Shown piece after piece: positions 1 to 3,287 of a DNA stretch of 64,000 nt. The translations under genes and the position numbers were made by a program. Under the pieces are notes generated by a model, which was not told the DNA's origin, ran no database searches, and saw only the letters and a program-made list of their open reading frames with translations. The stretch's first letter is position 1. Each line of letters begins with the position of its first letter. The DNA comes from an uncultured Flavobacteriaceae bacterium. Lineage in GTDB: Bacteria; Bacteroidota; Bacteroidia; Flavobacteriales; Flavobacteriaceae. The stretch is from NCBI GenBank assembly GCA_947503005.1, contig CANNCA010000002.1:124001-188000 (forward strand), in the 5' to 3' direction.

Positions 1-201
1 TTGGCGTATTGTATCGTAATACCTTTTTTATGGGTTCTCAACTATAATACAACTAGTTTTCCTTGGGCAATATTTCCTACCTTGGGTTGGGGTTTCGGCG
101 TCGCAGCCCATGCAATGGAGGCGTATGGATATAACCCTATATGGGGCAAACGTTGGGAAGAGAAAAAAATGCGAGAGTTGATGGAAGACGATGATTTTTA
201 A
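1..201 (+). CDS. 2TM-domain membrane protein, 5'-truncated (2TM-1)
   Basis: The reading frame is open at the window edge, so the first base is not the true start and the N-terminal part lies upstream. What remains is a hydrophobic segment, a short loop with NTTSFPW, a second hydrophobic segment (FPTLGWGFGVAAHAM) and a charged tail with the hallmark N-P-x-W-G-K-x-W-E-x-K of the Bacteroidota 2TM domain (Pfam family of unknown function: two helices joined by a short linker). It is the first of seven such genes in a row. It ends just before a strong hairpin terminator at 224-249, so it probably belongs to an upstream transcript, possibly with the missing sensor kinase. Confidence 0.78.
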   Translation: MAYCIVIPFLWVLNYNTTSFPWAIFPTLGWGFGVAAHAMEAYGYNPIWGKRWEEKKMRELMEDDDF

Positions 202-223
202 TCGATCATCAACCGAGTTTATC

Positions 224-249
224 AGGCTTCCTATTGGGAAGCCTTTTTT
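224..249 (+). terminator. Intrinsic terminator after 2TM-1
   Basis: An 8-bp perfect stem (AGGCTTCC at 224-231 with GGAAGCCT at 237-244) closes a 5-nt loop and runs into a T tract at 244-249. It lies 23 bases after the stop of the first 2TM gene and suggests the next 2TM gene has its own promoter, or is reached only by read-through. Confidence 0.75.
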
Positions 250-375
250 ATTGAGATAGTATTCCAAGTAATCCCGGTCTGAATTAGGTACGGTATTTTA
301 CAGTTCGGTATCAAAAAATAACAATTGAGCAAGCTTCCTTTTTAATTGCCTCACAATCTGTAGATATTTGAAGAG

Positions 376-393
376 TACTTAAAAAACAACCTA
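376..393 (+). repeat. Leader repeat copy 1, before 2TM-2
   Basis: TACTTAAAAAACAACCTA lies 10 bases upstream of the ATG at 404. A copy one A shorter occurs at 701-717, upstream of the next 2TM gene. The match suggests the leader was duplicated with the gene. Its function (RNA leader, translation element or just recent ancestry) is not shown by the sequence. Confidence 0.55.
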
Positions 394-403
394 AAAATAT
401 ATC

Positions 404-682
404 ATGCAAAATCTGAACGAATACAAATACAAGAAAGCAAAAAAACGTGTAGGTGAGATCAAGTCTTTTTACTCGCATGTGATCGTCTATGTTGCAGTAA
501 TTTCAATACTGGTTTTACTGAACTATAAGACTACGAATTTCCCATGGGTTTTGTTTCCGGCTTTGGGCTGGGGTTTAGGCTTATTAGGTCATGGGTTAGG
601 TACATTTGGACACAATCTTGTTCTCGGTAAAAACTGGGAAGAACGAAAGATCAAAGAGCTCATGGAAAACAATGAACTCTAA
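404..682 (+). CDS. 2TM-domain membrane protein (2TM-2)
   Basis: This 92-residue protein has a basic N-terminus (KYKKAKKRVGEIKSFYSHV), a first membrane helix at about residues 25-42, the short loop NYKTTNFPW, a second helix at about 49-70, and a charged tail with LGKNWEERKIKELMENNEL. That is the full 2TM domain with nothing else attached. It resembles the partial gene at 1-201 in loop and tail and forms with it and the next gene a short-loop subgroup. The start ATG at 404 is preceded by an A-rich leader rather than a Shine-Dalgarno site, as is common in Bacteroidota. Both ends probably face the cytoplasm. Function unknown; a membrane partner of a LytS/LytTR-type sensor system is inferred from the cluster. 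Confidence 0.85.
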   Translation: MQNLNEYKYKKAKKRVGEIKSFYSHVIVYVAVISILVLLNYKTTNFPWVLFPALGWGLGLLGHGLGTFGHNLVLGKNWEERKIKELMENNEL

Positions 683-700
683 GATTCCTTATCTTTAGAA

Positions 701-717
701 TACTTAAAAACAACCTA
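701..717 (+). repeat. Leader repeat copy 2, before 2TM-3
   Basis: TACTTAAAAACAACCTA is nearly identical to 376-393 and lies 16 bases upstream of the ATG at 734. A TATCTTTA at 690-697 resembles the -7 promoter element TAnnTTTG, but no TTG is at the right distance upstream, so I do not call a promoter here. Confidence 0.5.
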
Positions 718-733
718 TTAAAAAAGAATATTC

Positions 734-1033
734 ATGTATAAAATAGAAGATGAAAAATATATACGAGCCAAAGAAAAAGTAGCCGAACTTCGCAAGTTTT
801 ATGGCAGCTTGGTGTCTTATGTGATAGTGATTTCGTTTTTAGCCGCTTTGAATTATTACACCAATGAATGGCGCTATGCATGGTTTTTATGGGCTGCTTT
901 TGGTTGGGGAATCGGACTTGTATTTCAAGCAATTAAAGCGTTTAGTGTCAATCCTTTTTTCGGAAAGAATTGGGAAAAGCGAAAAATACAAGAGTTCATG
1001 CAAGAAGAAGAACAAAAGGACCGTTGGGAGTAG
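734..1033 (+). CDS. 2TM-domain membrane protein (2TM-3)
   Basis: This 99-residue 2TM protein has the motif AREKVAELRKFY-like N-terminus (here RAKEKVAELRKFYGSLVSYV), a first helix at about 24-41, a short loop containing NYYTNEWRYAW, a second helix at about 50-70, and the tail NPFFGKNWEKRKIQEFMQEEE. The tail is rich in acidic and basic residues and probably cytoplasmic. It is the third consecutive paralog and the last of the short-loop subgroup. It is followed after 36 bases by the next paralog, so co-transcription is likely. The biochemical role is unknown. Confidence 0.85.
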   Translation: MYKIEDEKYIRAKEKVAELRKFYGSLVSYVIVISFLAALNYYTNEWRYAWFLWAAFGWGIGLVFQAIKAFSVNPFFGKNWEKRKIQEFMQEEEQKDRWE

Positions 1034-1069
1034 CGGTTAACGTAGAAAATAAAATTGAAATCAATTATT

Positions 1070-1423
1070 ATGGAAACAAGTCATATTGATAAGAAAACAA
1101 GGGCCAAACAAAGAGTAGAAGAATTGAAAGGGTTTTATTGGCATTTGGCAGTTTATTTGATAGTTAACTCCTTCATTACCATAAGCAAAATAATACGGAA
1201 CACTTTCAACGGAGAAAGTTTCGGTGAGGCCTTCTGGGATTTTGGAACCTTCGCAGTATGGTTCTTTTGGGGAATAGGTCTCGCGTTTCATGCCGTAAAA
1301 GTATTTAACATCAATCCATTCTTCGGGAAGGATTGGGAGAAAAGACAGATCCAAAAGTATATGGATGAAAGTCGAGAAGAGGCTGAGAAATATAAAAGAA
1401 TAAGAAGTAACGATGAAAAATAA
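1070..1423 (+). CDS. 2TM-domain membrane protein, type A (2TM-4)
   Basis: I chose the ATG at 1070 (117 residues); a TTG 15 bases upstream would add five residues. The protein shows KKTRAKQRVEELKGFYWHL, helix 1, a loop of roughly 20 residues with FNGESFGEAFWDFG, helix 2 (WFFWGIGLAFHAVKVF), then NPFFGKDWEKRQIQKYMDE and a longer charged tail. It is much closer to 2TM-6 (1836-2189) than to its direct neighbours: both share RQIQKYM, the long polar tail and the same loop. Its last 11 bases overlap the start of 2TM-5, indicating translational coupling. Function unknown; part of the array in front of the LytTR regulator. Confidence 0.85.
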   Translation: METSHIDKKTRAKQRVEELKGFYWHLAVYLIVNSFITISKIIRNTFNGESFGEAFWDFGTFAVWFFWGIGLAFHAVKVFNINPFFGKDWEKRQIQKYMDESREEAEKYKRIRSNDEK

Positions 1424-1754
1424 CGAACAATTGTCAAAATACGAACGAGCACAAAAAAAAGTGGCTCAAATACGTGGATTTTATAATCATTTGGCCGCCT
1501 ATATCATTGTGAACATCGTATTGTTATTGGCCAGGGATAAATTTACCTTTATTCTGTTGAGTAAAAAGGCTATCGGAAACCCTGAGTTTTTGGAATGGAT
1601 TGACTGGAATGTCTTTGGAACGGCCATCGTTTGGGGAATAGCCTTGGGTGTACATGCCATTAAAGTTTTTGGAAATATTTCTTTTTTTGGAAAGAAATGG
1701 GAAGAACGCAAGATGCAGCAATTTATGGACGAAGAAATTGAAAATAGGCCGTAG
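1413..1754 (+). CDS. 2TM-domain membrane protein, type B (2TM-5)
   Basis: This 113-residue protein starts inside the end of 2TM-4. It has the N-terminal RAQKKVAQIRGFYNHLAAYI, helix 1, an extended loop with a GNPEFLEWIDWN segment, helix 2 (GTAIVWGIALGVHAIKVFG) and the tail SFFGKKWEERKMQQFMDEE. The extended loop with its EW-x-W pattern recurs in 2TM-7 (MSWVEWNLY) and is absent from the other five. Types A and B therefore alternate A-B-A-B, which points to duplication of a two-gene unit. The overlapping start suggests that A and B are made in fixed ratio and may form a heteromer. No enzymatic motif is visible. Confidence 0.85.
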   Translation: MKNNEQLSKYERAQKKVAQIRGFYNHLAAYIIVNIVLLLARDKFTFILLSKKAIGNPEFLEWIDWNVFGTAIVWGIALGVHAIKVFGNISFFGKKWEERKMQQFMDEEIENRP

Positions 1755-1835
1755 ATTTCAATGTAAACCTAAAAAAAGTAAATCATTACTATTTGCTAAA
1801 CCGCTTACAAAACACGATGGTGTGAGATTTTAATT

Positions 1836-2189
1836 ATGGATGCTACAAAAACGGACAAAAGTACTAAAGCCAAAAATCGAGTTAAAGAATTGAAGGGTTT
1901 TTATACTCATTTAATGGTTTACATCATGATTAATACCATGCTTACGGTGGTCAAGCTAATTGGCACGTACTATTACGGAGAAACATTCATGGGGCCTTTA
2001 TGGCACTTTAGCACCTTTGCAACATGGCTTTTTTGGGGTATTGGGCTGGGGTTTCATGCGATAAAGGTTTTTCGAATGAACCCTTTTTTCAATAAGGATT
2101 GGGAAGAGCGTCAGATACAGAAATATATGGAGGAAGACCGAAAAGAAGTTGAAAAATATACGCATACAAGCGATGGCAACAAAAAATAA
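1836..2189 (+). CDS. 2TM-domain membrane protein, type A (2TM-6)
   Basis: This 117-residue paralog matches 2TM-4 along its length: STKAKNRVKELKGFYTHL, helix 1 with TVVKLIG, a loop with YYGETFMGPLWHFSTFA, helix 2 (WLFWGIGLGFHAIKVF) and NPFFNKDWEERQIQKYMEE plus a polar tail. The 81-base gap after 2TM-5 contains an AACCTAAAAA stretch similar to the leaders of 2TM-2 and 2TM-3, so an extra promoter is possible. The end overlaps the next gene by 17 bases, in the same frame relationship as the 2TM-4/2TM-5 junction. Function unknown. Confidence 0.85.
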   Translation: MDATKTDKSTKAKNRVKELKGFYTHLMVYIMINTMLTVVKLIGTYYYGETFMGPLWHFSTFATWLFWGIGLGFHAIKVFRMNPFFNKDWEERQIQKYMEEDRKEVEKYTHTSDGNKK

Positions 2190-2499
2190 TAGGCAAAGCA
2201 AAATTGAACGTGCACGGTCCAGAGTGGCGAAAATCAAAGGGTATTATAGGCATATAGCTATCTTTATCATCATCAATGGGTTTCTATTGCTTTCAAAAAA
2301 AAGTATTGCAATCGCTTTATTCGGAGAAGGAAACCCAGTAAATTCTAAAGCCATGAGTTGGGTCGAATGGAATCTATACATATGGTTGGCGATACTCGCC
2401 ATTCATACTATTTTGGTATTTGGTAAAGCACCCCTTTTTATGAAGAAATGGGAAGACCGTCAAATAGACAAGTTTATTGAAGAAGAACGAAAAAGATAG
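2173..2499 (+). CDS. 2TM-domain membrane protein, type B (2TM-7)
   Basis: I place the start at the ATG at 2173 (108 residues) because it mirrors the overlap seen between 2TM-4 and 2TM-5; a start at 2149 would lengthen the overlap without adding conserved sequence. The protein has IERARSRVAKIKGYYRHIAIFI, helix 1, the long type-B loop with NSKAMSWVEWNLY, helix 2 (IWLAILAIHTILVFG) and KAPLFMKKWEDRQIDKFIEEE. It is the most divergent tail of the set: N-P-F-F-G-K is replaced by APLFMKK. The LytTR regulator starts 32 bases later, so the two are probably co-transcribed. Confidence 0.82.
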   Translation: MATKNNRQSKIERARSRVAKIKGYYRHIAIFIIINGFLLLSKKSIAIALFGEGNPVNSKAMSWVEWNLYIWLAILAIHTILVFGKAPLFMKKWEDRQIDKFIEEERKR

Positions 2500-2531
2500 C
2501 ACCAACAAATTAATAAATAGAATTAGATAAC

Positions 2532-3287
2532 ATGAATGTTATAATCATTGAAGATGAAAAACCCGCAGCAAGAAGACTCTCAAGACTATTGGCGGAGTTT
2601 GAGGTAGAAGTATCCATAATGCTTCATTCCGTTGAGGAAGCGATCAATTGGTTTCAGAACAACGAACATCCAGATTTAATATTCTTGGATATTCAGCTTT
2701 CTGACGGACTCTCTTTTGAAATTTTTGATGAAGTTGAAGTCAAGAGTGCTATTATTTTCACAACGGCCTATGATGAATATGCATTACAGGCTTTTAAATT
2801 GAACAGCATTGACTACCTTTTGAAACCTATTGATGACGAAGAATTGGAAAGTGCTGTGAAAAAATATCGTTCCTTAAAACCTCAATCGCAAAAATTAGCA
2901 TTGGATTTCGAGGATATCAAAAAATTGTTGGTCAATCCGCTGGAACGGGAACACAAAAAAAGATTTACGGTCAAAGTAGGGCAGCACCTAAAAATTATAA
3001 ATGCAGATGAAGTGGAGAGTTTTTATAGCGAAAATAAAGGCACTTATGCCGCCACTTCAGATGGCAGAAATTATTTGTTGGACACTACTTTGGAAAATCT
3101 CGAAACTGAATTAGATCCTAAAATATTCTTTCGGGTAAGCCGAAAATTCTATGTCAATATTAACCATATCAAAGACATCATTTCATACACCAATTCAAGG
3201 CTTCAAATCAAGCTAAACAACTTTTCTGAGCAAGAAATTATAGTAAGTAGGGAAAAAGTTCGAAATTTTAAGTTATGGTTAGAGTAA
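2532..3287 (+). CDS. LytTR-family response regulator
   Basis: The 251-residue protein is a two-domain transcription regulator. Residues 1-120 form a CheY-like receiver: acidic pair E7-D8, phospho-acceptor D53 in LIFLDIQLSDG, T77/T78 in IIFTTAYDEYA and K98 in DYLLKPID. Residues about 145-250 form a LytTR DNA-binding domain (RFTVKVGQHLKIINADEV-like opening, RVSRKFYVNINHI, and RLQIKLNNFSE). Such regulators are usually paired with a LytS-type His_kinase (PF06580) kinase. None is encoded in this window, so the partner either lies upstream of position 1 or is elsewhere. Being last in the 2TM array implies that the 2TM proteins and this regulator work in one signalling pathway. Confidence 0.92.
   Translation: MNVIIIEDEKPAARRLSRLLAEFEVEVSIMLHSVEEAINWFQNNEHPDLIFLDIQLSDGLSFEIFDEVEVKSAIIFTTAYDEYALQAFKLNSIDYLLKPIDDEELESAVKKYRSLKPQSQKLALDFEDIKKLLVNPLEREHKKRFTVKVGQHLKIINADEVESFYSENKGTYAATSDGRNYLLDTTLENLETELDPKIFFRVSRKFYVNINHIKDIISYTNSRLQIKLNNFSEQEIIVSREKVRNFKLWLE

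Follow-up and report, generated by a model that had tools for sequence, protein, structure and literature searches.

The downstream part of a kinase–2TM–LytTR operon in the window

The window analysed here is the 64,000-nt stretch of an uncultured Flavobacteriaceae genome (GCA_947503005.1, contig CANNCA010000002.1, positions 124,001 to 188,000) whose first lines stand above, and its first 3,287 nt hold the downstream part of a signalling operon with the order DUF2141 – TPR – kinase(2TM) – six 2TM genes – REC-LytTR regulator (Table 1). The first-pass annotation had described a run of seven 2TM genes ending in a LytTR regulator. The consecutive domains and the terminal regulator are borne out at the positions it gave, as all seven domains score 67.6–103.8 bits in a genome scan against the PF13239 cut-off of 24.8 bits. 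The genes, however, number six, as the first frame is the tail of a 445-aa histidine kinase (L010:7864-9201; contig 2, 122864-124201) whose first 1,137 bases precede the window. The same annotation expected a kinase upstream of position 1, and a PF06580 gene does lie directly upstream on the same strand, itself fused to a 2TM domain.

Within the kinase, PF06580 spans residues 163–241 (90.3 bits, cut-off 25.2) and PF13239 residues 363–441, and the H-box LDPHFLFNSLNVL and N-box ENAVKHN are nearly or fully invariant across 36 relatives. The regulator contains Response_reg (55.4 bits) and LytTR (77.3 bits) domains. The kinase is preceded on its own strand by genes for a DUF2141 protein and for a 207-aa protein whose TPR matches are weak and fall under the Pfam cut-offs; the gaps measure 5 and 9 bp. 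By Pfam, none of the kinase, 2TM, regulator, TPR or DUF2141 proteins contains a PspA, PspC, LiaF or Toastrack domain.

The six standalone 2TM genes belong to the sequence classes A, B, C, D, C2 and D2, of which class A is the nearest to the kinase's own 2TM domain. Genes 3 and 4 overlap, as do genes 5 and 6, and the C–D pair is repeated as genes 5–6, with a 186-nt repeat of 72% identity linking genes 3 and 5. Six in-register 103-nt DNA copies (kinase domain, A, B, C, D and C2, with D2 outside) have 62–72% identity to the reference copy, and thus, the repeat array is not due to chance. For genes 3 and 6, ATG starts were chosen over TTG codons by judgement. Two further 2TM matches occur elsewhere in the same genome.

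Table 1. Operon features within the window
Feature	Position	Strand	Remarks
Histidine kinase, 3′ end (LytS-type, PF06580 + C-terminal 2TM)	1..201	+	last 66 residues and stop
Terminator-like hairpin with T tail, kinase/2TM gap	224..244	+	
Predicted LytTR site, ACAGTTCGG – 12 nt – ACAATTGAG, 21-bp period	300..329	+	boxes 300–308 and 321–329
-7-like promoter element, GATATTTG	363..370	+	TTTG at 367–370, starting 37 nt past second box
2TM protein class A, 92 aa	404..682	+	
2TM protein class B, 99 aa	734..1033	+	
2TM protein class C, 117 aa from ATG	1070..1423	+	TTG 1055 possible alternative start
2TM protein class D, 113 aa	1413..1754	+	overlaps class C gene
2TM protein class C2, 117 aa	1836..2189	+	
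2TM protein class D2, 108 aa from ATG	2173..2499	+	TTG 2149 alternative; overlaps class C2 gene
Response regulator, REC + LytTR, 251 aa	2532..3287	+	

A hairpin like the one in Table 1 stands at the same offset after the kinase in L019. We reject a conserved terminator between kinase and array as a general feature, since a like element occurs in 4 of 93 kinase-to-2TM gaps. Approximately 2 kb upstream of the operon lies a second kinase/LytTR-regulator pair (L010:2967-5660), encoding a TPR-rich 653-aa kinase and a 243-aa regulator, with domains read from the sequence.

Recurrence of the operon in relatives

We assembled 57 operon or operon-fragment stretches and 50 loci from named organisms and dropped 12 duplicates; the 96 loci kept differ in length, so the absence of a gene from one is no proof of its loss. 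The expected recurrence of a kinase – 2TM gene(s) – LytTR arrangement is found, with a kinase in 95 loci, at least one standalone 2TM gene in 94 and the regulator in 87, while a TPR gene is present in 67 and a DUF2141 gene in 29. The number of standalone 2TM genes is 0 in 2 loci (contig ends), 1 in 17, 2 in 20, 3 in 26, 4 in 13, 5 in 8, 6 in 9 and 9 in one, and array size thus spans 1–9 in intact loci and 3–6 in the window's genus. Broken or short copies are also observed, including one with a single TAG in G013 and frames of 57–64 aa in some loci. In L024:806-1699 and L026:614-1594, a 2TM domain and, by eye, a dihydrofolate reductase-like part share one frame, which is probably a fusion found in some Flavobacteriaceae.

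At the family level, a kinase scoring at least 335 bits is present in 49 of 60 genomes in a genera-level sample; a threshold of E 1e-20 gives 52 of 60, of which G017, G030 and G059 hold only paralogs (91–154 bits). Across a phylum sample, 2TM matches occur in 19 of 80 genomes, with kinase-sized 2TM frames (445–480 aa; putative kinases) in six family members, including the window's genome, and in G083, which belongs to another family of the same order. Single 2TM genes are also found elsewhere in the phylum.

Among named organisms, the kinases nearest to this one are those of Maribacter halichondriae (81% in the best segment), a Maribacter metagenome-assembled genome (MAG; 82% over an incomplete kinase) and, at 73%, a Pricia antarctica MAG, in a search that may leave out records very near the source genome. 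The window thus stems from a marine, Maribacter-like member of the Flavobacteriaceae. The M. halichondriae kinase (L119:5998-7330) is split into overlapping frames of 179 and 269 aa, which reflects either an assembly error or a real break. In L044, the 514-aa kinase (L044:1685-3229) carries two tandem 2TM domains that are sisters in the tree described below, and the kinase is therefore able to accept a second 2TM unit. The L047 kinase has a possible second, N-terminal 2TM domain at residues 80–152, with a weak match (2.6e-6).

Classes, order and selection in the 2TM array

To classify the 2TM proteins, we inferred a tree of 387 domains, with Shimodaira–Hasegawa-like approximate likelihood ratio test (SH-aLRT) supports. 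Class B forms a clade of 62 members (support 92) and class C one of 59 (support 93), which includes the C2 clade of 7 members (support 99). Class D is a clade of 93 members with support 71 (90 of them at 84) and includes the D2 clade of 5 members (support 98). The kinase 2TM domains and class A together make up a clade of 88 members (support 97), within which class A is not demonstrably a single clade. The C2 clade is common to 7 loci and the D2 clade to 5. Median domain lengths are 87 aa for A, 91 for B, 100 for C and 104 for D.

The order in which the first copies of these classes stand is conserved across related genera. A stands ahead of B in 19/19 loci, B ahead of C in 50/50 and of D in 51/51, and C ahead of D in 44/44, where the loci are related by descent and are not independent trials. 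The first-pass annotation had proposed looking for a conserved number and order of 2TM genes in relatives; the order of the first copies A, B, C and D is indeed constant, whereas the number is not. A second C or a second C–D block follows D in L010 (the window's locus), L011, L018, L098 and L113, and L119 has a second B copy at the array end.

Ratios of nonsynonymous to synonymous substitution (dN/dS) were taken from pairs of close relatives, several of which were saturated and gave no value. The ratios are 0.02–0.24 for B and 0.03–0.15 for C, indicating purifying selection on both genes. For comparison, we obtain 0.03–0.48 for A (with the maximum at dS 0.06), 0.03–0.18 for the kinase and 0–0.06 for the regulator; two further comparisons within D, at 0.37 and 0.45, involve proteins of 31–34% identity that are probably not orthologous. 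The absence of a kinase combined with random variation in array size had been named in advance as grounds for simple drift. The outcome is mixed: the kinase is present and array size does vary, yet not by free drift, as the order of the first A to D copies is fixed and B and C are under purifying selection.

An AlphaFold2 model of class C (predicted local distance difference test score 82.7; predicted template modelling score, pTM, 0.54) places helices at residues 2–46, 58–78 and 87–116. From this model, the kinase and the 2TM proteins probably have a helix hairpin in common, with flanking helices that we assume to be cytoplasmic from the positive-inside rule. A fold search with this model returned no significant match (best E 0.75), and the 2TM profile detected no relative among solved structures (best E 0.63). 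A packing arrangement taken from an AlphaFold model of the kinase was rejected at pTM 0.40.

A paired-repeat site at a fixed distance from a -7-like promoter element

A dyad count over the kinase-to-2TM gaps of 49 non-redundant A/B loci found repeats in up to 19 loci, compared with a maximum of 9–12 in shuffles. The motif is ACA[AG]TT[CG][AG][GT], present twice with a 12-nt spacer. Of 93 kinase-to-2TM gaps, the 63 of at least 60 bp were scanned, and a repeat pair scoring at least 16/18 is present in 59 of them, every one with a period of 21, while shuffles give 1.52. This is the format of published LytTR targets, for which the portion of the literature account used here describes 9–11-nt repeats and 11–13-nt spacers (PMC4847170). 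In the window, the site and the promoter element behind it (300–370) put the 2TM genes under a predicted LytTR promoter of their own. With at most one mismatch, a site is found in 22/26 A/B-type loci. The 27 class-E loci, which belong to a second group of genera, mostly have kinase-2TM gaps of 0–24 bp without a promoter of their own; in 27/27 of these short-gap loci, the operon stretch has a site of the same stringency at another position.

Across the 14 genomes of the genus, allowing one mismatch, there are 74 site matches versus 10 matches to the reversed pattern. In the family sample, the 49 kinase-bearing genomes contain 185 site matches versus 40 control matches, and the 11 without the kinase contain 9 versus 7. 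The excess over background is therefore limited to kinase-bearing genomes (Mann-Whitney p 3e-6, with genomes that are not independent).

We then collected 175 site matches, comprising 63 from the scans, 60 stretches chosen among the genome-wide matches listed, and operon stretches. A -7-like element, TTT(G/A), recurs across them at a fixed 37 nt. TTTG begins exactly 37 nt past the second box in 36/37 sites before operon DUF2141/TPR genes, 24/25 before TonB-dependent receptors, 18/21 before second DUF2141 genes, 18/26 before kinase/2TM genes and 19/31 other sites, and in 3/14 sites that fall within long frames. Among the 161 sites outside frames, the letter frequencies by column are A 97%, T 95%, T 96%, T 96% and G 78% (A 19%). 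Sixteen of the 175 matches fall inside a frame; several low-grade ones, and a site that falls within a long contig 13 frame, were taken as chance. A similar geometry appears in the part of a study of Bacteroides LytTR operons consulted here, in which repeats stand 11 bp upstream of TGTA-19 bp-TATCTTTG (PMC6193735), a repeat-to-TTTG distance of approximately 38 nt by summing, near the 37 nt found here.

A predicted envelope regulon

The genes downstream of the 175 matches encode DUF2141 or TPR proteins in 58 cases (operon DUF2141 13, second DUF2141 21, TPR 24), the kinase/2TM cluster in 27, a TonB-dependent receptor in 25 and a DUF2807 protein in 21. The remainder consists of four small clusters of 2–3, 7 singletons, and 27 matches without a frame of at least 70 aa within 400 nt. 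In the window's genome, a longer pattern (boxes plus ANNTTTR, at most 3 mismatches) has 9 matches versus 3 for the control, and six of these have 0–1 mismatch. These six best sites precede a DUF2807 gene behind pspC, a DUF2141/TonB-receptor divergon (two sites), the first gene of the operon, the 2TM genes and a microprotein array. The predicted targets point to the envelope.

The pspC neighbour of the DUF2807 gene encodes PspC, LiaI-LiaF-TM, Toast-rack and a weak HAAS domain (under the cut-off), and a PadR regulator adjoins it. DUF2807 has been unified into Toastrack by Ravi and colleagues, whose work, in the sections available to us, also describes HAAS-PadR systems (PMC11237479). A membrane protein with LytTR and without REC (L245:1494-2300) is encoded approximately 2.6 kb from the divergon.

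Behind the sixth site, we observe tandem 37-aa frames of the form MKAS...TESKTGQYFS...SKRAQWAQYRNFNR (L184:133-700; contig 2, ~901433-902100), with one extra copy before the site and a related 36-aa frame after. They have no Pfam or NCBIfam match. Within the genus, matches at E 0.01 occur in 9/14 genomes and 24 full-length copies of at least 78% identity in 7/14; the kinase-less G010 has two partial matches, and several G011 copies have no detected site near by. Eight site-bearing microprotein loci are of the MKAS type and two (L139 and L188) of another type; in these two genus genomes, tiny tandem frames of 38, 27–28 and 34 aa stand behind the same site.

In the open-access literature, outside of which most subscription-journal papers lie, we found no description of a regulon for this LytTR system in Flavobacteriaceae. 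Open-access searches combining the 2TM domain, LytTR and histidine kinase returned nothing beyond the phage shock protein (PSP) paper PMC11237479, and those for DUF2807 in Flavobacteri nothing beyond an unrelated genome paper.

Comparison with known systems

LytS/LytTR-type two-component systems include YpdAB and BtsSR of E. coli and AgrCA. Like them, the present system has a PF06580 kinase with conserved H-box and N-box, a REC-LytTR regulator and a predicted paired direct-repeat target. Unlike them, its kinase ends in a 2TM hairpin, kinase and regulator are separated by 1–9 standalone 2TM genes, a predicted LytTR promoter stands inside the operon, and the predicted regulon concerns the envelope rather than one transporter. 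As LytS/LytTR signalling, the core proteins are ordinary and the ordered accessory array is unusual.

LytTR Regulatory Systems (LRS; HdrRM/BrsRM and LRS-like operons of Bacteroides) are described, in the portion of PMC6193735 consulted, as having direct repeats with a 12-bp spacer before the operon promoter, read as positive autoregulation. The shared features are a LytTR regulator and small membrane proteins in one operon, direct repeats upstream, here both before the first gene of the operon and before the 2TM genes, and, for the Bacteroides operons, a TTTG promoter at a nearly equal distance. The difference is that in LRS, as far as that portion goes, the LytTR regulator acts independently of a kinase and is inhibited by a membrane protein, whereas here both a histidine kinase and a REC domain are present and the membrane proteins are of the 2TM family.

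Compared with the PSP/Lia network (HAAS-PadR, PspC, Toastrack; PMC11237479, in part), the likeness is a predicted target, the DUF2807 gene directly behind the PadR – HAAS/PspC/LiaI-LiaF-TM/Toast-rack genes. The sensing and regulating proteins here have none of the LiaFSR/PSP domains; Toastrack appears as a predicted target instead, and the link is one of predicted regulation only. A mutation-hit LytTR/kinase pair of Flavobacterium johnsoniae was taken as another system, as the part of the report seen (PMC10197871) gives consecutive locus tags. For the 2TM domain itself, Pfam provides a family name without an assigned function, and we found no function for PF13239 in the literature searched.

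Interpretation of the array

We consider it likely, with a probability of roughly 0.6, that the operon encodes an autoregulated, envelope-related two-component system of Flavobacteriaceae in which the 2TM proteins are feedback-controlled partners of the kinase 2TM domain. In such a system, the membrane kinase with its C-terminal hairpin would phosphorylate the REC-LytTR regulator encoded at the array end, which would bind paired 9-bp repeats of 21-bp period just upstream of promoters. The regulator would thereby activate its own operon from promoter 1, ahead of DUF2141-TPR-kinase, and from an internal promoter 2, ahead of the 2TM genes and its own gene, as well as a small envelope regulon. As copies of the kinase membrane domain, the standalone 2TM proteins would most likely pack against the kinase as subunits or competitors and set its activity by feedback, with a dose that rises when the system is on and a strength that grows with array length. 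The kinase ends in the hairpin, the L044 kinase carries a tandem pair, and the adjoining copies stand under a predicted regulator-dependent promoter; this packing is the simplest mechanism. A more elaborate version is possible but doubtful: the ordered paralogs from the internal promoter would exchange with the kinase domain in a mixed membrane bundle, so that array length would tune sensitivity, and the regulator would also drive an envelope regulon that includes the tandem 37-aa microprotein genes.

Several observations weigh against feedback-controlled partners. The kinase and 2TM matches occur together in 13/14 genus genomes, with G010 lacking both, and 11/60 family genomes are without the system. 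The kinase-less G010 nevertheless has 2 site matches versus 0 for the control, one of which, ahead of an alpha/beta-hydrolase-like frame, has TTT at the fixed distance, and other LytTR regulators in the window's genome could use the same site. At DUF2807 sites, TTTG is at the expected place in only 6/21, the others displayed having TTTA. When all copies are counted, 6 loci with additional C, D or B genes depart from the order, and the order of classes E and a is mixed (a comes first in 6, E in 2). Apparent D orthologues, at dN/dS 0.02–0.26, are less constrained than B and C. A single standalone 2TM gene is found in 17/96 loci (a few of them cut or unusual), so that a fixed multi-subunit complex is not required. 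Finally, the kinase model (an L071 relative, 36 sequences) reaches pTM 0.40 and has no confident arrangement.

The main rival is that the 2TM proteins are effectors, made while the system is on in order to stabilise or remodel the membrane, for example, with a likeness to the kinase that stems from their origin by duplication. A predicted regulator-dependent promoter of their own, as remote targets have, agrees with this, as do a copy number that varies freely from 1 to 9 and the occurrence of other 2TM proteins away from kinases. However, the 2TM genes stay, almost without exception, between kinase and regulator and in ordered classes, the class-E loci mostly leave no room for a separate promoter, and a kinase with two 2TM domains exists; we regard effectors as rather unlikely. 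A membrane sensor of several subunits, with a separate signal for the loop of each class, would suit the differing domain lengths and the kept order, but one standalone gene is enough in many loci, genes 5–6 repeat the C–D pair, the predicted internal promoter would make the stoichiometry variable, and no ligand-binding features came to light, although no search aimed at them was made; we regard such a sensor as improbable. The evidence for that promoter favours feedback-controlled partners over a receptor of fixed stoichiometry. Least probable, in our judgement, is neutral tandem duplication with drift in array size and content and no function past one copy: it accords with the 3–6 genes among close relatives in the genus and with the short or broken copies, yet class order is kept, dN/dS is low in B and C, and the C2 and D2 clades indicate that duplicates have persisted.

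Significance

The 2TM domain is now tied to a kinase, a regulator, a predicted DNA site and a short target list. If feedback by 2TM partners is correct, the operon would exemplify signalling that is tuned by the dose of duplicates of a sensor's own membrane domain, with a predicted envelope regulon for 49 of the 60 family genomes in our genera-level sample. It would also connect the PspC/Toastrack network with a LytTR system and reveal a family of unannotated microproteins.

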